DNA of 64,000 nucleotides from Burkholderiales bacterium RIFCSPHIGHO2_01_FULL_63_240 (GTDB taxonomy: Bacteria; Pseudomonadota; Gammaproteobacteria; Burkholderiales; Burkholderiaceae_C): the NCBI GenBank assembly GCA_001770725.1, contig MERU01000006.1, positions 372,001 to 436,000 on the forward strand, in the 5' to 3' direction. Below the pieces are notes generated by a model, which was not told the origin of the DNA, did no database searches, and was given only the letters and a program-made list of their open reading frames with translations. Positions 1-7,529 of the stretch are shown here, in pieces. The stretch's first letter is position 1, and each line of letters begins with the position of its first letter. The position numbers were made by a program, and so were the translations under genes.

Positions 1-114
1 CTGGCCGAGATGCTTCAGCGAGCCGATGCGCGCGGGGCACCTGACGAAGACGAGGACAGCGACGCTCAGCCAGAGCCAGGCCACCCGCATCGCCGAGGAT
101 GGGGGGCCGCATGA
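1..114 (+). CDS. 3' end of an upstream gene, unidentified
   Basis: A reading frame open from base 1 ends at a TGA at 112-114 and encodes an acidic, Pro/Gly-rich tail of 37 residues (LAEMLQRADARGAP...). Its stop overlaps the next start in an ATGA arrangement (ATG at 111), which is typical of co-transcribed, translationally coupled genes and is the main reason to call it coding. The tail carries no recognisable motif. By position it belongs to the nif accessory operon (nifB or a small nif ferredoxin would be usual neighbours), but that is inference. Confidence 0.5.
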   Translation: MAEMLQRADARGAPDEDEDSDAQPEPGHPHRRGWGAA

Positions 115-899
115 TCGACCCGAAGGACATCGACATCCCGCCGCTGAGCTGGCAAGGCACGCCACTCGATTGCGAACAATGCGTGCACCGGGGCTTGCGA
201 GCGCGCGACGGCTGCGAGATCGGCCACGCCTGTGTGGAAGACGCCTATGCGCGTCGCATTGACCGCTTCATGCGCTGGCACCCGGAGCTGGCCAACGAGC
301 TCACCCGCCACCCGCATTTCGAGGTGCGCGCCATCGCGGCCAGGCATGCCGATGTGTTCGCGGTTCAGCGCCTGGCCAACGATCCGGACGAGACCGTTCG
401 CCTGCAGGTGGCGTTGCGCTTGCCGCCGCACCGCCTGCAGGCCCTGATGCACGACCCCCATCGCGAGGTCAGGTTGCGCGTGGCCCACCGCCTGCCCACC
501 GAAGCCCTGTCCGATCTCATCGCCGATGCCGACTACGGCGTGCGCCTCGTGGTGGCCCGCCGCCTGCCCCTGGCCTTGCTGAGTCAGCTGGCCGATGACC
601 CCGATGCGCAAGTGCGTGGCGCGGTGGCCGAGCGGCTGGAGATGCCTGCGCTGTGGCGCCTGGCCACCGACCCCGCCGAATCCGTGCGGCGCGTGGTCGC
701 CCGGCGTGCACCGACCGGGCTGCTCGGGGCCCTGGCCAGCGACGCGGACCTGCTGGTGCGCTGGGAGGTGGCACAGCGCGCGTGCGTCGATGTGCTGCAT
801 CGCCTCTCTCAGGACCCGGCTGCGGAGATCCGCGAGCTCGCCCTGCAGCGGCTGCTCGAAGGCGACACCCCGGCTGACGTGGAGGCAAAGCATGGCTGA
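111..899 (+). CDS. 4Fe-4S leucine-rich-repeat-variant (LRV) protein
   Basis: 262 residues. The N-terminus carries four cysteines (about C21, C24, C35, C41) in the pattern of the LRV Fe-S domain, followed by about eight tandem 24-residue repeats, each starting near D-P/A-x-x-x-V-R and containing a run like VARRLP. This matches the Azotobacter LRV protein, an alpha/3-10 superhelix with an N-terminal [4Fe-4S] cluster that is encoded in nif regions; its exact role is unknown. The start at 111 is preferred over ATG 99 because it overlaps the upstream stop (ATGA). The 3' end overlaps nifZ by 8 bases, so it belongs to the same operon. Confidence 0.88.
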   Translation: MIDPKDIDIPPLSWQGTPLDCEQCVHRGLRARDGCEIGHACVEDAYARRIDRFMRWHPELANELTRHPHFEVRAIAARHADVFAVQRLANDPDETVRLQVALRLPPHRLQALMHDPHREVRLRVAHRLPTEALSDLIADADYGVRLVVARRLPLALLSQLADDPDAQVRGAVAERLEMPALWRLATDPAESVRRVVARRAPTGLLGALASDADLLVRWEVAQRACVDVLHRLSQDPAAEIRELALQRLLEGDTPADVEAKHG

Positions 900-1227
900 C
901 ATCAACCGCGACGACGACGTCATCGAGATCGCCCACCCGCCGCGCTTTCAGTATGGTGAGCGGGTGGTCAGCCGAACCCTGGTGCGCAACGACGGCACCT
1001 TCAATGGCAAGGACATCGGCGAGGTGCTCGTCAGCAAGGGCGAGATCGGCTACGTGGTCTCCATCGGCACCTTCCTGCAGCAGTTCTACATCTATGCCGT
1101 CGAGTTCAACGACAGCGGCCACCGCGTCGGCATGCGGGCCAAGGAGCTGATGACGCTGGACAACCTGCCCGAAGACATCCTGGCTCAGCTCGGCGAGAAG
1201 GCCGACCGGTTGCAGAGCCTGCGCTGA
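892..1227 (+). CDS. nifZ: NifZ family protein
   Basis: 111 residues. The central part (RFQYGERVVS ... GEIGYVVSIGTFLQQFYIYAVEF) is the NifZ domain, and the C-terminus (RAKELM) is also typical. NifZ helps maturation of the MoFe protein, particularly formation of the second P-cluster, and acts in the cytoplasm. The ATG lies inside the end of the LRV gene behind a GGAGG-type site (GGAGGCAAAGC). A second NifZ-like gene follows 11 bases downstream. Identification is from the domain pattern and nif context. Confidence 0.93.
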   Translation: MADINRDDDVIEIAHPPRFQYGERVVSRTLVRNDGTFNGKDIGEVLVSKGEIGYVVSIGTFLQQFYIYAVEFNDSGHRVGMRAKELMTLDNLPEDILAQLGEKADRLQSLR

Positions 1228-1238
1228 AAGGAACCGAG

Positions 1239-1595
1239 ATGGACCACGACACCCCCGCCACCCTCCGGCCCGAGCTGCCCCAGCCGCTTGAACTGCCCCC
1301 AGGCATCGCGCCCGTTGAAGGGCCGGCCTACCAATGGGGCCAGTGCGTGGTCGCGCTCGGCGACCTGGTCAACGATGGCAGCTTCCCGGATGTGCCCGAT
1401 GGCGCCGTGCTGGTCGACGTGGGCAGCGAAGGCGAGGTCGTCCAGGTCGGCGTTCACGAGGCCAGCCAGCTGCCGGTCTACATGGTGGACTTCGCAGGTC
1501 GCGTGGTGGGCTGTGCAGAAGGCGAAATCATGCTGGCGATGGAGCTGCATGACCTGGCCAGGCAAGCCCGGCCTTCGCTGGGAGCGCAGCCGTGA
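1239..1595 (+). CDS. nifZ: Second NifZ-domain protein
   Basis: 118 residues with a Pro-rich N-terminus, then a NifZ core (VVALGDLVNDGSFPDVPDGA, GSEGEVVQVGVHE, LPVYMVDFAGRVVGCAEGE). It resembles the NifZ fold but is clearly diverged from the gene at 892-1227, with a conserved Gly-Cys near the C-terminus. Paired NifZ genes are known in several diazotroph clusters. It starts with ATG behind an AAAGGAACCGAG site and ends in a GTGA overlap with the next gene. The functional split between the two NifZ copies cannot be read from sequence. Confidence 0.87.
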   Translation: MDHDTPATLRPELPQPLELPPGIAPVEGPAYQWGQCVVALGDLVNDGSFPDVPDGAVLVDVGSEGEVVQVGVHEASQLPVYMVDFAGRVVGCAEGEIMLAMELHDLARQARPSLGAQP

Positions 1596-1948
1596 TCGCC
1601 ATGTCCAGCCAGTCGGCCCCGCAGGCGCCGCAGCTCGCGAAGGTGCACGACCTCACCGCGCGACGCATCGAGCGCGCGCTGGCCCGCCGCCAGCGCTACC
1701 GGTATGTGCAGCCGGAGGTCCGGGCCCACGAAAGGGGCTGGGTGATCGCCAGCCCCTGCTGTTCCCGCAACGTCGATCCATCGGGGGGCGAGATCCCCAT
1801 CGCTTGGCTGGAGCCCCATGCCGATGGATGGTCCCTGTACCGACGCCACCACGCCGATTCGAGCTGGGTTCTGCACAGTCAGGCGCCATGGTTGGCCGAG
1901 CTGCTTGACATCGTCTGCCGCGACGGGTCGCGGGTCTTCTGGCCTTGA
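1592..1948 (+). CDS. Small nif-associated protein of unknown function
   Basis: 118 residues. The core contains RRQRYRYVQPEV, then WVIASPCCSRNVD with an adjacent Cys pair, and a Trp/Tyr-rich C-terminal half. The family was not recognised. A GTG start at 1592 is chosen because it overlaps the preceding stop (GTGA) and has GGGAG seven bases upstream; an ATG at 1601 is the alternative. Tight packing between nifZ and nifS argues for a role in Fe-S or nitrogenase maturation, and the CC pair could bind metal, but both points are inference. Confidence 0.75.
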   Translation: MIAMSSQSAPQAPQLAKVHDLTARRIERALARRQRYRYVQPEVRAHERGWVIASPCCSRNVDPSGGEIPIAWLEPHADGWSLYRRHHADSSWVLHSQAPWLAELLDIVCRDGSRVFWP

Positions 1949-1963: not shown

Positions 1964-3148
1964 ATGCTCTACCTCGATCACAACGCCACCACGCCCGTGC
2001 TGCCCGCGGTGATCGAGGCCATGGGCGAAGCCTTGCGCCGCCACTGGGCCAACCCCTCCTCTCAACACGAAGCGGGCCAGGCTGCCCGCGGCGCGCTGCA
2101 GCACGCCAGGGCCCAGGTGGCGCGCTGCCTGGGTTGCCAGCCAGCCGAGCTGGTGTTCACCAGCGGGGCCACCGAGGCCAACCACATCGCGTTGCGCGGC
2201 GCGGTGGGCCATGGCGGCCGAGCGGGCCTGGTGGTCAGCGCGGCCGAGCACGCGGGTGTCCACAAGCTCGTGCATCAACTGGGGCGGCAACCAGGCCCGC
2301 AGGGCGTGCCCGTCGGTGTGATCGGCCTGCAGCCCTCTGGTGGGCTCGACCTGGCTGCCGCCGAGGCCCTGATTGGCGAAGCCACGGCCCTGGTCTCGGT
2401 GATGGCGGCCAACAACGAAACCGGCGTGCTCATGCCCACGGCCGAGATCGCCCGCCTGGCGCATGCGCGTGGTGCGTTGCTGCATGTCGATGCCACCCAG
2501 CTCATCGGCAAGCTGCCTTTTGACTTTGCCCGCAGCGGTGCCGACCTGGTGTCGGTGTCGGCGCACAAGTTCGGCGGGCCCAAGGGCGTGGGCGCGCTCA
2601 TCGTGCGCAAGGGCCTGAACTGGCCGGCGCTGTTCGCAGGCTCCCAGGAGCGTGGACGCCGAGGGGGCACCGAGAACCTGCCGGGCATCGTCGGCTTTGG
2701 CGTGGCGGCCGAGCACCAGGCCTGGACGGCGGGCAACTGGCACGACCGCAGCGCGAAGCTGGCCGCGCTGCGCGACCGTTTCGAGGCGCGCTTGCGAACC
2801 GCTTGCCCGGAGTTGGTCGTCTACGGTGCCAGCCAGCCCCGCTTGCCGCAGACCAGCTTCCTGCGCCTGGGCCATGCGCACGCCGACCTCGCCCTGCAGA
2901 AGCTGTCGAGCCTGGGGGCGCTGGCCTCGTCGGGCTCGGCCTGCTCATCGGGTGGCCAGGCTGCGTCGCATGTCCTCGCGGCGATGGGCGTGCCGCGCGA
3001 GGAGGCGCTGTGCGCCGTTCGTCTGTCCTTCGCACCCGACACCCCGGCCGCCGATCTGCTGGCGCTGGCCGATGCCTGGCCCCGTCTCGTGAGCGACGGG
3101 CATGCCTGCTCAACTTTTTCTCATCCCCCCACTGGAGTCGCCGCATGA
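1964..3148 (+). CDS. nifS: Cysteine desulfurase NifS
   Basis: 394 residues, class V PLP aminotransferase fold. The N-terminus MLYLDHNATTP, the PLP lysine in SVSAHKFGGPKG and the mobile catalytic cysteine in SSGSACSSGG are all present. NifS converts cysteine to alanine and delivers sulfur for nitrogenase Fe-S clusters. It is the divergent nif-type enzyme; a second desulfurase of IscS type is at 27799-29028. The ATG at 1964 is chosen because it gives the standard N-terminus; the frame also opens at a TTG at 1955. No NifU scaffold gene lies next to it, which is unusual. The stop overlaps nifT (ATGA). Confidence 0.95.
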   Translation: MLYLDHNATTPVLPAVIEAMGEALRRHWANPSSQHEAGQAARGALQHARAQVARCLGCQPAELVFTSGATEANHIALRGAVGHGGRAGLVVSAAEHAGVHKLVHQLGRQPGPQGVPVGVIGLQPSGGLDLAAAEALIGEATALVSVMAANNETGVLMPTAEIARLAHARGALLHVDATQLIGKLPFDFARSGADLVSVSAHKFGGPKGVGALIVRKGLNWPALFAGSQERGRRGGTENLPGIVGFGVAAEHQAWTAGNWHDRSAKLAALRDRFEARLRTACPELVVYGASQPRLPQTSFLRLGHAHADLALQKLSSLGALASSGSACSSGGQAASHVLAAMGVPREEALCAVRLSFAPDTPAADLLALADAWPRLVSDGHACSTFSHPPTGVAA

Positions 3149-3369
3149 AGGTCATGATCCGCAAGAGCGCGCAGGGCGTGCTGTCCGCTTACGTGCCCAA
3201 GAAGGACCTGGAAGAGCCCATCGTGTCGATGGAGCGACCCGGCATGTGGGGGGGGCTCGTCACCCTGGCCAATGGCTGGGAGCTGCAGCTGCCCGAAATG
3301 GCGGCCGAAACCTCGCTGCCCGTGACGGTGGAGGCGCGCCGCACCTCCCTGGGCGAAGCCGAAGCCTGA
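3145..3369 (+). CDS. nifT: NifT/FixU protein
   Basis: 74 residues, the usual NifT length. It starts MKVMIRKSAQG, has the conserved YVPKKDLEEPIV stretch and a WGG...LANGWELQLPE segment. NifT/FixU is conserved in nif operons but mutants have little phenotype, and its role is not established. The ATG overlaps the nifS stop. Confidence 0.93.
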   Translation: MKVMIRKSAQGVLSAYVPKKDLEEPIVSMERPGMWGGLVTLANGWELQLPEMAAETSLPVTVEARRTSLGEAEA

Positions 3370-3379
3370 GGAGCCTGAC

Positions 3380-3646
3380 ATGTCGCTGACCCACGAACAG
3401 ATGCAGCACATCGCCGGTGTCCTGGCGCAGGCCGAGACGGTGCGGGCCGCTGCCACCCTCATCCGCCAGCAGCTGGCGCCCCTTCAGACCCTGGTGATGG
3501 ACGCGTTCGACATGCGCCGGGAAACCCCGGCGATCGAGGTGGTGGACACGGGGCGCAGCGCTTACCTGATGGCCACCGATGGCCATTGCTGGATGGTGAC
3601 GCCCGACCCAGCCTTGGCGCGCGCCCTGGTCCTCACGCAGGCCTGA
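3380..3646 (+). CDS. Small nif-associated protein of unknown function
   Basis: 88 residues, predicted soluble. It has an N-terminal helix with many Gln/Ala residues (LTHEQMQHIAGVLAQAETV), then DMRRETPAIEV and DGHCWMVT. It is preceded by a GAGGAG-type site and lies 10 bases after nifT. The size and position match a conserved small protein seen beside nifT in other gammaproteobacterial and betaproteobacterial nif clusters (possibly the DUF6129 family), but the family assignment is from memory. No catalytic motif is visible. Confidence 0.75.
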   Translation: MSLTHEQMQHIAGVLAQAETVRAAATLIRQQLAPLQTLVMDAFDMRRETPAIEVVDTGRSAYLMATDGHCWMVTPDPALARALVLTQA

Positions 3647-3671: not shown

Positions 3672-4844
3672 ATGCCCAACGACGAAGACGACCAAGGCGA
3701 CGACTGGCTGGCGCTGTCCGACCCCGACATCGGCACCGACGAGATGGAGCAGGCGCTGCTGACCCTGCGAAGCCCGCAGCTCTCGATGGGCCCGAAGGTG
3801 GCCGAATTCGAGGGGGCCTTTGCTGCCTGGGTGGGGCGACCACAGGGTGTGGCCGTCTCCAGCGGCACGCTGGGGGCCTGCCTGCTGCTCAAGGCCTGGG
3901 GCGTGGGCGCGGGCGACGAGGTCATCACCACCGGCTACGCCTGGCACCAGGTGGCCCATGCCATTGCCCTGGTGGGCGCCACGCCGGTGCTGGTCGACAT
4001 CGACTACTGGTCGGGCTGCATCGACCCCGCGTCGGCCGAGCGCGCCATCGGGCCTCGGACCCGGGTGCTGCTGGCGGGCAACGTCAATGGCCACCCGGCC
4101 GACTGGGCTGCCCTGCGGTCGCTGGCCGATCGGCATGGCCTGAAGCTGCTGGAAGACAGCACCGAGGCCATTGGCTCGCGCTACCAGGGGCGGCATGTGG
4201 GCACCTTCGGGGACGCGGCCGTGTTCGACTTTTCGCAACCTTCTGCGCTGTGCACGGGGCAGGGCGGCATGCTGCTGTGCGACGACGCCGGGCTGGCCGA
4301 CGAGCTGCGCTACCTGCGCGAACGCCGCGTGGACGACCGCCGCTCGGTGTCGGTGGGCAGCCGCGTGCCCTGGCAGGCCGGCATGGGCGAGCTCGAAGCT
4401 GCCGTGGGCCTGGCTCAGTTGGGCCGCATCGACGACATCCTGCTGCGCCGCAAGCAGGTCGAGGCCTGGTACCACGGCGAGATGCAGAGCTTCGAGGGCA
4501 TCAAGCCGCCCTACCTGGCCGATCAGGTCGACGAGGTGCACTGGATGCTCTACCAGGTTCACCTGGGCAAGCGCTTCACGGCCAGTGCGCGCAACCTGCT
4601 GATCGAAGACATGGCCTCGAACAACCTGAGCACGGCGGCCTTTTGCCAGCCCCTGCATCAGCAGTTTTTCTACCAGCAGCAGGGCTGGAAGCGGGGGGCG
4701 CTGCCCAACACCGAACGCATCGCAGACCGCTCCATGGTGTTGCCCTTCCACGGGCACCTCGACGCCGACCACGTCCGCTTCATCGTCAAGACGCTCAAGG
4801 ATGCGTCGGTGAACGTGGGCGCGGGCGCGGCCATCTACCTTTGA
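3672..4844 (+). CDS. DegT/DnrJ/EryC1/StrS-fold protein, PLP lysine apparently replaced
   Basis: 390 residues over the full length of the DegT sugar-aminotransferase family. Recognisable segments are VAVSSGTLGACLLLKAWGVG (39-80 region), GDEVITTGY, LLEDSTEAIGS with the PLP-pyridine Asp near 162, and a TGQGGM motif near 195-200. In active members the PLP lysine lies eight residues into VFSFHPVKxxxTGEGG. Here the same stretch reads VFDFSQPSALCTGQGG, placing Ser191 (bases 4242-4244) where Lys should be. It is therefore probably not an aminotransferase; a PLP-binding, substrate-binding or regulatory role is possible. It sits in the nif accessory operon, 12 bases before the SIR2-like gene. A non-catalytic variant is inference from the alignment by eye. 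Confidence 0.85.
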   Translation: MPNDEDDQGDDWLALSDPDIGTDEMEQALLTLRSPQLSMGPKVAEFEGAFAAWVGRPQGVAVSSGTLGACLLLKAWGVGAGDEVITTGYAWHQVAHAIALVGATPVLVDIDYWSGCIDPASAERAIGPRTRVLLAGNVNGHPADWAALRSLADRHGLKLLEDSTEAIGSRYQGRHVGTFGDAAVFDFSQPSALCTGQGGMLLCDDAGLADELRYLRERRVDDRRSVSVGSRVPWQAGMGELEAAVGLAQLGRIDDILLRRKQVEAWYHGEMQSFEGIKPPYLADQVDEVHWMLYQVHLGKRFTASARNLLIEDMASNNLSTAAFCQPLHQQFFYQQQGWKRGALPNTERIADRSMVLPFHGHLDADHVRFIVKTLKDASVNVGAGAAIYL

Positions 4845-4856
4845 AGGAACCCCCTC

Positions 4857-5714
4857 ATGTCCGCCGTCCTCTCAACCGATGCCGACACCGCGCTGAACAC
4901 CTTGCTCGAGGTCCGCGAGGCCTTGCTGGCCGGTGCGGCCGTGCCTTACCTGGGCCCTGGCCTGCTGAACCTGGGTGAGGCCCCACCCGTGCCGGCCACC
5001 CCGCAGGCGCTGGTGACCAAGCTGGTGGCGCACGCAACCGTGCCCCACAAGGTGCGCAACCGCCTGACCCAGGCCGCGCAGTACATCGAGAACTTCAAGC
5101 ACCGCAAGACGGTGGTGAACCTGATGAACCAGGCCTTCGCCGAGGTGCCCCAGCCGCACGACGTCCACCGCTGGCTGGCAACGCTCTCGCTGCCGCTGAT
5201 CGTCGAGAGCTGGTACGACGACACCATGGCCGAGGCCTTGCGCCAGGTGATGGGGCTGGCGGGCTGGGGCGAGGTGCAGGGCCTGTCGCAGTCGGAGCAC
5301 TTCGGCACCTGGCACGCCCACTACGACCCGACCGGGGTGCGGGTGCGCAGCGGCTTCGACGGGTGGCCCACCCTGCTGTACCGGCCGATCGGCGGCCATG
5401 CCCCGGCAGGCAACTACCTGGTCTCGGATGCCGATTACGTCGAGGTGCTCACCGAGATCGACATCCAGACGCCGATCCCGCAAGAGGTGCAGGCGCGCCG
5501 CAGTGGCCGCTCCTTCGTTTTCATCGGTTGCCGCTTCGACGATCAGCTCACCCGCAGCTTCGCGCGCCAGATCATGAAGCGTTCTGGCGATCGCCATTGG
5601 GCGGTGCTGCCTGACGAACCCACGCGCATGGAAGCGCGCTTCCTGGCCGAGCAGGGCATCACCCGCATCCCGCTGTCGCTGGCCGAGGCGGTTCAGGGCC
5701 TCATGGCCGCCTGA
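4857..5714 (+). CDS. SIR2-like domain protein in nif operon
   Basis: 285 residues. The N-terminal part LAGAAVPYLGPGLLNLG resembles the NAD-binding Gly-rich loop of SIR2 proteins (PFxGAGxS), and the C-terminal stretch FVFIGCRFDDQLTRSF ... QGITRIPL matches the end of the SIR2_2 domain (FIGxSxxDxxxR). In the middle, LLYRPIGGHAPAGNYLVSDADY aligns with the family's KLHGS...LxxxDY segment, but the usual catalytic His of HG is Ile. There are no zinc cysteines. SIR2_2 domains occur in NAD-handling and antiphage proteins; here the gene is embedded in a nif operon with 12 bases to its DegT-like neighbour. Its function is unknown. NAD(P)/ADP-ribose sensing is a guess. Confidence 0.75.
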   Translation: MSAVLSTDADTALNTLLEVREALLAGAAVPYLGPGLLNLGEAPPVPATPQALVTKLVAHATVPHKVRNRLTQAAQYIENFKHRKTVVNLMNQAFAEVPQPHDVHRWLATLSLPLIVESWYDDTMAEALRQVMGLAGWGEVQGLSQSEHFGTWHAHYDPTGVRVRSGFDGWPTLLYRPIGGHAPAGNYLVSDADYVEVLTEIDIQTPIPQEVQARRSGRSFVFIGCRFDDQLTRSFARQIMKRSGDRHWAVLPDEPTRMEARFLAEQGITRIPLSLAEAVQGLMAA

Positions 5715-5766: not shown

Positions 5767-6063
5767 ATGACCACGCTCACCATCCTGCCGTCCAACACCA
5801 CGTTCGAAGCCGCACCGGGGGCCACCCTGTTTGCTGCGCTGAAGGCGGCGGGGGCGGCGATCCTCAGCAAGTGCGATGGCAAGGGCCAATGCGGCGCCTG
5901 CCATGTGTTCGTGCACGAAGGCCGAAAGGGGATCTCCAAGATCCAGCGCGCCGAGAACGACAAGCTCGACACCATGGTGGGCGTGAGCTCCAAGTCCAGG
6001 CTGGCCTGTCAGGTGGTGCTGGGTGAAGATCCGGTCACGGTCGAGGTGTTGAGTTTTGTCTGA
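5767..6063 (+). CDS. [2Fe-2S] plant-type ferredoxin, nif-associated
   Basis: 98 residues. The cluster ligands are visible as CDGKGQCGACHVF (C-x5-C-x2-C) and a distal Cys in SRLACQVV, the pattern of plant/adrenodoxin-like [2Fe-2S] ferredoxins. The ATG at 5767 has a GGAG site eight bases upstream; an in-frame start at 5731 lacks one. It is the last gene of the accessory nif operon. It resembles FdxD/Shethna-type ferredoxins found with nitrogenase and may carry electrons for maturation or protect nitrogenase against oxygen, both inferred from context. Confidence 0.88.
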   Translation: MTTLTILPSNTTFEAAPGATLFAALKAAGAAILSKCDGKGQCGACHVFVHEGRKGISKIQRAENDKLDTMVGVSSKSRLACQVVLGEDPVTVEVLSFV

Positions 6064-6388: not shown

Positions 6389-6997
6389 TCAGACCGGCCG
6401 GTTCTCGTTGGGGTTGCGCACCGGGCCCATGGTGGCCACGCCCTCGGCGTAGGTCATGGTGTCGAAGGTCACATCGTACTTCAGGGCGGCATCGGCGATG
6501 GCATCGAGCTTGGCCGCGGTGTCGAGCTTCTTGAGGTCGCCCTTTTCCAGGTAGAGCAGCTCCAGCAGCTCGTTGTAGACCGTGGCCTCGTCGATGGGCA
6601 GCACATAGAACATCGCGCCCTTGTAAGGCACCTGGTACTTGCGGCTGAGGTCGATGTTGTTGCAGAACAGGAAGTACTTGCCACCTGCGGTCAGGGCATC
6701 GCCCAGCACCTCGGCCACGTCCTTGAGGTGCTCGAAGGACAGCAGGTAGCCGGCGAAGAAGGGGATGGTGGACTGACCAGCGGTCGCGATGGCCATCACC
6801 TGGTCGCAGGTCAGCACGGGCGGTCGGGCTTCGTCGGCCAACTGGGTCGAAAAGCGCAGCGCCAGCTCGCCCCGGAAACCGAAGCGGCCACCGACGTGGG
6901 TGGGGCCTTTGAGGACCGGGTTCTGCAGGCGCTTTTGCACATCCAGCGGACCGAAGGCCGTCTGGTCGATGGTGAGGGGCGCGAGGATGGCTGACAT
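6389..6997 (-). CDS. Protein of unknown function in nif island
   Basis: 202 residues, soluble, no signal peptide. Notable stretches are VGGRFGFRGELALRFS, VLTCDQVMAIATAG and LFCNNIDLSRKYQVPYKGAMFYVLPIDEATVYNELLELLYLE. The family was not recognised and no catalytic motif stands out. Two cysteines are present but not as a cluster pattern. It lies 22 bases after the truncated hemoglobin gene and 2 bases before the FmdB-like gene, and all three are probably transcribed from the sigma-54-like promoter at 7470-7485. Context suggests a nitrogen-fixation accessory role. Confidence 0.78.
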   Translation of the reverse strand: MSAILAPLTIDQTAFGPLDVQKRLQNPVLKGPTHVGGRFGFRGELALRFSTQLADEARPPVLTCDQVMAIATAGQSTIPFFAGYLLSFEHLKDVAEVLGDALTAGGKYFLFCNNIDLSRKYQVPYKGAMFYVLPIDEATVYNELLELLYLEKGDLKKLDTAAKLDAIADAALKYDVTFDTMTYAEGVATMGPVRNPNENRPV

Positions 6998-7019: not shown

Positions 7020-7457
7020 TCAGGGGCTGGGGGAAGGTGGGTGGTCGTTGCGAATGGCTTCGGCGGTGCGGGTGAACGCAGCCATCAGCTCGGCCCGCAG
7101 GCCCGCATCGGCCACGACCTCGTCGAGCGCGTGCCTCATGCACAGCAGCCAGGCATCGCGCTCGGCCTGCCCGATTGAAAACGGCAGGTGCCTGCGCCGC
7201 AGGGCCGGACGGCCTCGCTGGGCGGAATAAAGCCGGGGCCCGCCCAGCCATTCGTGGAGGTAGAGCCTGAGTACGGCCTTGGTCTGCGACAGGTCAGGCT
7301 CGTGCATGGCGCGGATGCCAACGGCCTCTGGCAGCTCGTCCATCCACCGGTAGAAGGCGTCGACCAGGCGTGCCACGGCCACCTCCCCGCCGATGCGGGC
7401 GAAGTGCGGGTTGGCGGCCGCGGTGACGACCTCGGGCAGGGGAGCGGGCTGGTTCAT
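7020..7457 (-). CDS. Truncated hemoglobin, group II (TrHbO-like)
   Basis: 145 residues. Group II marks are visible: RIGGEVAVARLVDAFY with the B10 Tyr, the proximal His in LRRRHLPFSIG, and the G8 Trp in ERDAWLLCM. It should bind heme and O2/NO in the cytoplasm. It is transcribed away from nifH, and the spacer holds a sigma-54-like promoter and a NifA-type site. O2 or NO management for nitrogenase is therefore the natural inference. Start: the ATG at 7457 has no good ribosome site and would lie one base from the predicted transcript start. A GTG codon about 26 codons further in (EVAV) has GGGGAGG in front and would remove only the first helix. Confidence 0.9.
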   Translation of the reverse strand: MNQPAPLPEVVTAAANPHFARIGGEVAVARLVDAFYRWMDELPEAVGIRAMHEPDLSQTKAVLRLYLHEWLGGPRLYSAQRGRPALRRRHLPFSIGQAERDAWLLCMRHALDEVVADAGLRAELMAAFTRTAEAIRNDHPPSPSP

Positions 7458-7469
7458 GCGCACTTCAGC

Positions 7470-7485
7470 GCAAAGCCCATGCCAG
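7470..7485 (-). promoter_or_regulatory. Sigma-54 (-24/-12) promoter of the truncated hemoglobin operon
   Basis: On the minus strand the bases read CTGGCATGGGCTTTGC: GG and GC with exactly ten bases between, fitting YTGGYAYR-N4-TTGC. The predicted start is near 7458, immediately before the hemoglobin ATG, which would make a leaderless message or require a downstream start codon. Confidence 0.6.
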
Positions 7486-7529
7486 CCGGGCATTGCCCAC
7501 GTGGGTGAAGGTGCATGCCCGTTGGGGCC

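Follow-up and report, generated by a model that had tools for sequence, protein, structure and literature searches.

The window, meaning the whole analysed stretch of 64,000 nucleotides from Burkholderiales bacterium RIFCSPHIGHO2_01_FULL_63_240 (contig MERU01000006.1, 372001-436000), belongs to a genome of 4.12 Mb that is 99.99% complete, and its closest named relatives among the matches listed are Comamonadaceae/Aquabacterium strains. Near its start, two adjacent open reading frames (ORFs) encoding a DegT-like and a SIR2-like protein are embedded in a run of nif genes on the same strand:

99-899, plus strand: LRV 4Fe-4S leucine-rich repeat variant protein (Pfam), 5' member of the operon
892-1227, plus strand: nifZ, copy 1 (PF04319, 7.6e-31)
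1239-1595, plus strand: nifZ, copy 2 (PF04319, 1.3e-22)
1592-1948, plus strand: DUF3024 protein of the operon (PF11225, 6.7e-20)
1967-3148, plus strand: NifS-like cysteine desulfurase (start codon uncertain, 1955 or 1967)
3145-3369, plus strand: nifT (PF06988, 7.6e-32)
3380-3646, plus strand: conserved 88-aa ORF in the interval from nifT to the DegT-like gene (no Pfam match)
3672-4844, plus strand: DegT-like ORF, 390 aa, DegT/ArnB fold without the PLP lysine
4857-5714, plus strand: SIR2-like ORF, 285 aa, SIR2_2 fold without the catalytic Asn and His
5767-6063, plus strand: [2Fe-2S] ferredoxin, closing the operon (PF00111, 2.7e-11)

Genes for NifA, NifB and an IscA-like protein, named by sequence motifs, lie directly upstream, beyond the window edge, and together with the ferredoxin downstream they place the pair near the end of the nifB operon, which runs nifB-iscA-LRV-nifZ-nifZ-DUF3024-nifS-nifT-orf-fdx and holds the DegT-like and SIR2-like genes. 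A NifA-type TGT-N10-ACA site precedes nifB, and no sigma-54 match was found between this site and nifB with the strict patterns used. An earlier note on this DNA, made from the letters alone, had described two adjacent ORFs 12 bases apart in a single nif operon, which is confirmed, the operon being that of nifB. Its placement of the pair between nifT and the ferredoxin is broadly right, but the 88-aa ORF separates nifT from the DegT-like gene.

In a scan of 84,980 species genomes, the DegT-like protein had 501 relatives, a number that may include ordinary DegT proteins, and the best 80 were kept. The co-occurrence of the pair that the earlier note had proposed to survey was found in every one of these related loci, as all 80 named loci (best 80 of 501) carry DegT and SIR2 genes on the same strand, in a gene order that is alike with few variants. 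When the window is counted with the best 80 of the 501, nifT is present in 79 of the 81 loci, the NifS-like gene in the same operon in 78, the ferredoxin gene in 70, the DUF3024 gene in 69 and the 88-aa ORF in 65; in Bradyrhizobium sp. BWA-3-5, the neighbour at the place of the 88-aa ORF is annotated as DUF6129. The NifS-like desulfurase, which scores 342 bits against an NCBIfam NifS cut-off of 531, is an operon-specific second NifS.

Three further genes lie on the minus strand beyond the operon. A small zinc-ribbon protein (PF09723; 6156-6386) recurs in 32 of the 81 loci formed by the window and the best 80 of 501, and a 202-aa protein without a Pfam match (6389-6997), encoded on the opposite strand before nifH, in 34 of them, many loci ending short of this position. 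A truncated globin (PF01152, 1e-33; 7020-7493) adjoins nifH and occupies the same place in many related loci, where it possibly serves in oxygen handling for nitrogenase.

The linkage to nitrogen fixation is also seen in samples of genomes, in which both genes are nearly confined to those with nifD. In an order sample of 300 genomes, 27 carried the DegT-like gene, 26 of these together with nifD, which was present in 47 genomes overall (Fisher p 1.5e-23, in a test that ignores phylogenetic relatedness). In a phylum sample of 398, the SIR2-like gene occurred in 17 genomes, 15 of them with nifD (Fisher p 1.3e-14, relatedness likewise ignored), and the DegT-like gene in six, all of which carried nifD and the SIR2-like gene. 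The DegT-like gene is missing from 21 of the 47 nifD-positive Burkholderiales and is not universal in diazotrophs. Among plasmid sequences, the nif-linked DegT-like matches have 51-62% identity, while the next best, ordinary DegT proteins, reach at most 35%, a gap that sets the nif DegT-like proteins apart as a discrete clade. The SIR2-like gene also follows nifB, nifZ or nifT without a DegT gene in many alphaproteobacteria-like clusters, and does so on symbiosis plasmids of rhizobia too. Its distribution is thus wider than that of the DegT-like gene and the pair is not obligate; the SIR2-like part can apparently act alone, with the DegT-like part added in some lineages.

The DegT-like protein matches DegT_DnrJ_EryC1 (PF01041) in Pfam at 1.7e-86, and its AlphaFold model (pLDDT 89.0) resembles the perosamine synthase 3dr4 with a Z of 48.5 and ArnB (1mdo/1mdx) with a Z of 46.3-46.4 over ~362 residues at ~30% identity. 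Structure prediction thus agreed with the folds suggested in the earlier note, DegT (ArnB-type) for this protein and SIR2 (ThsA/DSR2-type) for its neighbour. The reading of Ser191 at the site of the PLP lysine was likewise upheld, since this residue aligns with Lys188 of ArnB (1mdo). The replacement runs through the family: the 104 readable homologues have Ser (74), Gly (21), Leu (5), Ala (3) or Gln (1) at position 191, and neither Lys nor a His of the ColD/E1 type was found in any of the 104.

The residues expected at the phosphate are altered as well. In the DegT family, an aligned Ser and an Asn from the partner subunit are expected to hold the PLP phosphate. Asp186, which is Asp in 104 of 104 homologues, aligns with Ser183 of ArnB, five residues before the Lys, and Gly237 aligns with the partner-subunit Asn of the ArnB GYKYNLPDL segment, a position with Gly, Ser or Ala in most homologues and Asn in five of 105. 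A DegT paralogue elsewhere in the same genome retains the Lys, the Ser and the Asn.

At 28 positions of the ArnB-aligned core, the fixed residue (at least 95%) is not that of ArnB, and at 30 fixed positions it is identical to ArnB. The fixed swaps from ArnB to the DegT-like protein include H135 to N137, A137 to N139, A139 to H141, H163 to E165, S183 to D186 and H185 to S188, and these six lie in segments that form the cofactor site. Shared with ArnB are the Trp (W89/W91), the Asp (D160/D162) and the SGT loop. Because non-ArnB residues are fixed while W91 and D162 stay, the pocket is, on the alignments, remodelled under constraint rather than decayed. The retention of the PLP-contact residues W91, S64/T66 and D162 makes non-covalent binding of PLP or PMP possible, and the polar set could also act as the holder of a metal or a carboxylate.

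The same polar set, fixed at N137, N139, H141, E165, D186 and S188 where relatives differ, would also suit re-purposed enzymes that perform a new chemistry without the classical residues, either Lys-independent as in the ColD/E1-type dehydrases or metal-dependent. However, ColD-type enzymes have His at the Lys site, whereas position 191 holds S, G, L, A or Q; Asp186 and Gly237 abolish two expected phosphate contacts; and no member of the SIR2-like family carries the Asn and His pair. A changed active site could be the seat of new catalysis, but we regard re-purposed enzymes as a rather improbable account of the pair.

Another use for a DegT fold without its lysine would be that of a non-catalytic partner subunit to a PLP enzyme of fold type I that is itself active, for instance the NifS-like desulfurase encoded upstream. 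Serine palmitoyltransferase offers a model, in which LCB1 is the non-catalytic partner of LCB2. The desulfurase retains its Lys motif (SAHKFGG) and Cys motif (SGSACSSG) and, as counted above, shares the operon in 78 of 81 loci. DegT and NifS nevertheless belong to different branches of fold type I, and we know of no heterodimer of a DegT-NifS type, so that this arrangement seems very unlikely.

The SIR2-like protein matches SIR2_2 (PF13289) in Pfam at 7.7e-17, and its predicted model (pLDDT 87.9) is closest to ThsA (8bto; Z 20.1 over 249 residues), followed by DSR2 and KomC. A phmmer search of the PDB with the single sequence returned chance matches only, and a profile built from 31 SIR2-like homologues was needed for the alignment with ThsA. 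Ile178 falls on ThsA His152 in this alignment, in keeping with the Ile that the earlier note had placed at the catalytic His, and a second loss, absent from that note, is the replacement of the catalytic Asn, ThsA Asn112, by Trp119. The 8bto chain has Ala at the Asn112 position, consistent with Asn112 being the mutated catalytic residue. Alignment of the two proteins to their families accordingly gave no aligned Lys and no intact SIR2 catalytic pair.

Among 119 SIR2-like homologues, position 119 is Trp in 114 and Asn in five. The combinations at 119/178 are W/I (50), W/W (30), W/L (25), W/H (5) and N/M (3), with N/L (2), W/F (2), W/M (1) and W/Y (1) as rarer forms, and Asn and His occur together in none of the 119. 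The five proteins with His at 178 all come from alphaproteobacteria-like clusters. Five distant loci (L082-L086) form a second nif-associated group that keeps the Asn (DINRD/DCNRD) and carries either Leu or Met in place of the His, and nifD is present in four of the five genomes.

An antiphage SIR2 system was also considered and was rejected on the nif context and on PADLOC matches that were weak (ThsA, E 0.0017). No relative of the SIR2-like protein was found among viral contigs.

The N-terminal glycine motif of the GAG type is partly kept, as GPG, in the window protein and most homologues. As the nearest SIR2 folds bind NAD, and as the ring-stacking Trp91 and Asp162 persist in the DegT-like pocket, the two proteins might constitute a ligand-sensing module, in which the SIR2-like part would take NAD+ or ADP-ribose as its ligand and the DegT-like part a PLP-like compound or a carboxylate, so as to tune nitrogenase synthesis or activity. 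Against such a module, a Pfam search of both proteins found neither a DNA-binding domain nor any other kind of output domain, no link to DraT/DraG emerged, and many clusters have the SIR2 gene without DegT; we consider it unlikely.

The connection with ADP-ribosylation of the Fe protein, which the earlier note had offered as an example, fared poorly. Fe-protein ADP-ribosylation requires DraT and DraG. Neither DraT (PF07357) nor a DraG-type hydrolase (PF03747) gave a match in the window's own genome, and DraT showed no association with the pair in 15 pair-bearing genomes tested, of which eight lack it and seven have it, which leaves the link unsupported.

Both genes are under strong purifying selection, with pairwise dN/dS in three pairs of relatives of 0.07-0.18 for the DegT-like gene and 0.10-0.31 for the SIR2-like gene. 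Local damage is nonetheless on record. On a plasmid of the legume symbiont Paraburkholderia sprentiae WSM5005 (L183, 5979-8823), the DegT gene is intact while the SIR2 and NifS-like genes are truncated, and the accessory operon seems to be decaying there. In Bradyrhizobium sp. BWA-3-5 (L184, 8001-9117), the DegT-like gene carries no annotation and is broken across two frames, with an intact SIR2-like gene nearby. These two cases would fit passenger genes that decay without present function, but the dN/dS range of 0.07-0.31, the many invariant positions and the intact genes in 80 of 80 loci (best 80 of 501) speak against it; gene decay was rejected on dN/dS and conservation and is barely credible for the family.

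The paired non-catalytic module of the earlier note can thus be retained in part. Both proteins lack the classical catalytic residues and both are tied to nif, whereas the strict two-part form is weakened, because SIR2 occurs without DegT, DegT with a truncated SIR2, and SIR2 with a broken DegT.

Family-wide replacement of catalytic residues, constraint, the place in the operon and near-confinement to genomes with nifD are all established at the level of sequence. Since the residues needed for aminotransferase and NADase chemistry are lost, the two proteins probably carry out neither transamination nor NAD cleavage and have a different job in nitrogen fixation. The reading that we favour, with somewhat more confidence than doubt, is that they are nif-dedicated pseudoenzymes of the nifB operon with an accessory role in maturation or protection of the nitrogenase cofactor, a role suggested by operon membership. 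The DegT-like and SIR2-like proteins would be made together with NifB and would help to mature or protect the nitrogenase metal clusters through binding. Like its fold relatives, the DegT-like protein is probably dimeric, and its remodelled polar pocket (N137, N139, H141, E165, D186 and S188) would receive something other than a PLP Schiff base as its ligand. The SIR2-like protein would be a domain that binds either a nucleotide or another protein as partner.

A more specific form of this reading, which we put forward only tentatively, casts the DegT-like protein as a new factor in the assembly of the FeMo-cofactor or the P-cluster, one that binds a ligand or a metal, has an aminotransferase fold but no PLP chemistry, and works with a SIR2-fold protein that no longer cuts NAD, the two being unrecognised maturation factors common to many proteobacterial diazotrophs. 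For proteobacteria, the list of genes on which nitrogenase depends is still open, a circumstance that limits the transfer of nitrogen fixation to other hosts. Because of the active-site residues, the annotations 'aminotransferase' and 'SIR2 (deacetylase)' are misleading for two conserved proteins of the nifB operon.

In the open-licence literature searched, no experimental account of such a system was found, in agreement with the earlier note, nor any paper that treats nif and DegT jointly in a relevant way, deals with this DegT-like protein or reports that catalysis has been lost. The main texts of the Tn-Seq and transcriptome work on A. olearius BH72 name nifZ, nifW and nifU, among others, and do not name the DegT-like or SIR2-like genes. 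Uncharacterised SIR2 proteins linked to nif have been recorded before. In R. capsulatus, Rcc03262 (annotated SIR2) is encoded by the last gene of the NifA-activated nifB1-rcc03265-nifZT-rcc03262 operon and went undetected in the nifA double mutant, i.e., it is NifA-dependent (PMC6925177). PST_1325 of P. stutzeri A1501 is a 'SIR2 family protein' encoded beside nifH (PMC11332353), a nif-linked 'SIR2 family' protein is recorded in Rhodovulum (PMC9412634), and the nif-cluster SIR2 protein ZMO1821 of Z. mobilis was proposed to be a deacetylase (PMC8600466, PMC8594446).

Compared with ArnB and GDP-perosamine synthase, the DegT-like protein has the same whole fold, ring-stacking Trp, pyridine-nitrogen Asp and SGT loop, and differs in the absence of the PLP Lys and the changes of Ser183 to Asp and of the partner Asn to Gly. 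ArnB-type genes reside in sugar clusters, whereas the DegT-like clade is nif-linked. The SIR2-like protein shares with defence SIR2 NADases such as ThsA, DSR2 and KomC the SIR2 fold (over 249 residues for 8bto), with an N-terminal profile match to ThsA; different from them, it has the Asn and His replaced, lacks an effector partner domain and is encoded in nif operons. RHE_RS30545 on p42d of R. etli CFN 42 likewise is a SIR2 protein encoded directly after nifA-nifB-4Fe4S-nifZ-nifT, with Trp at 119 and Tyr at the His site, and differs in having no DegT-like neighbour. Rcc03262, PST_1325 and ZMO1821 agree with the window protein in annotation and nif-cluster position, a position from which orthology is inferred, and the deacetylase suggestion for ZMO1821 (PMC8600466) has to be weighed against a catalytic pair that is missing in every SIR2-like relative examined.
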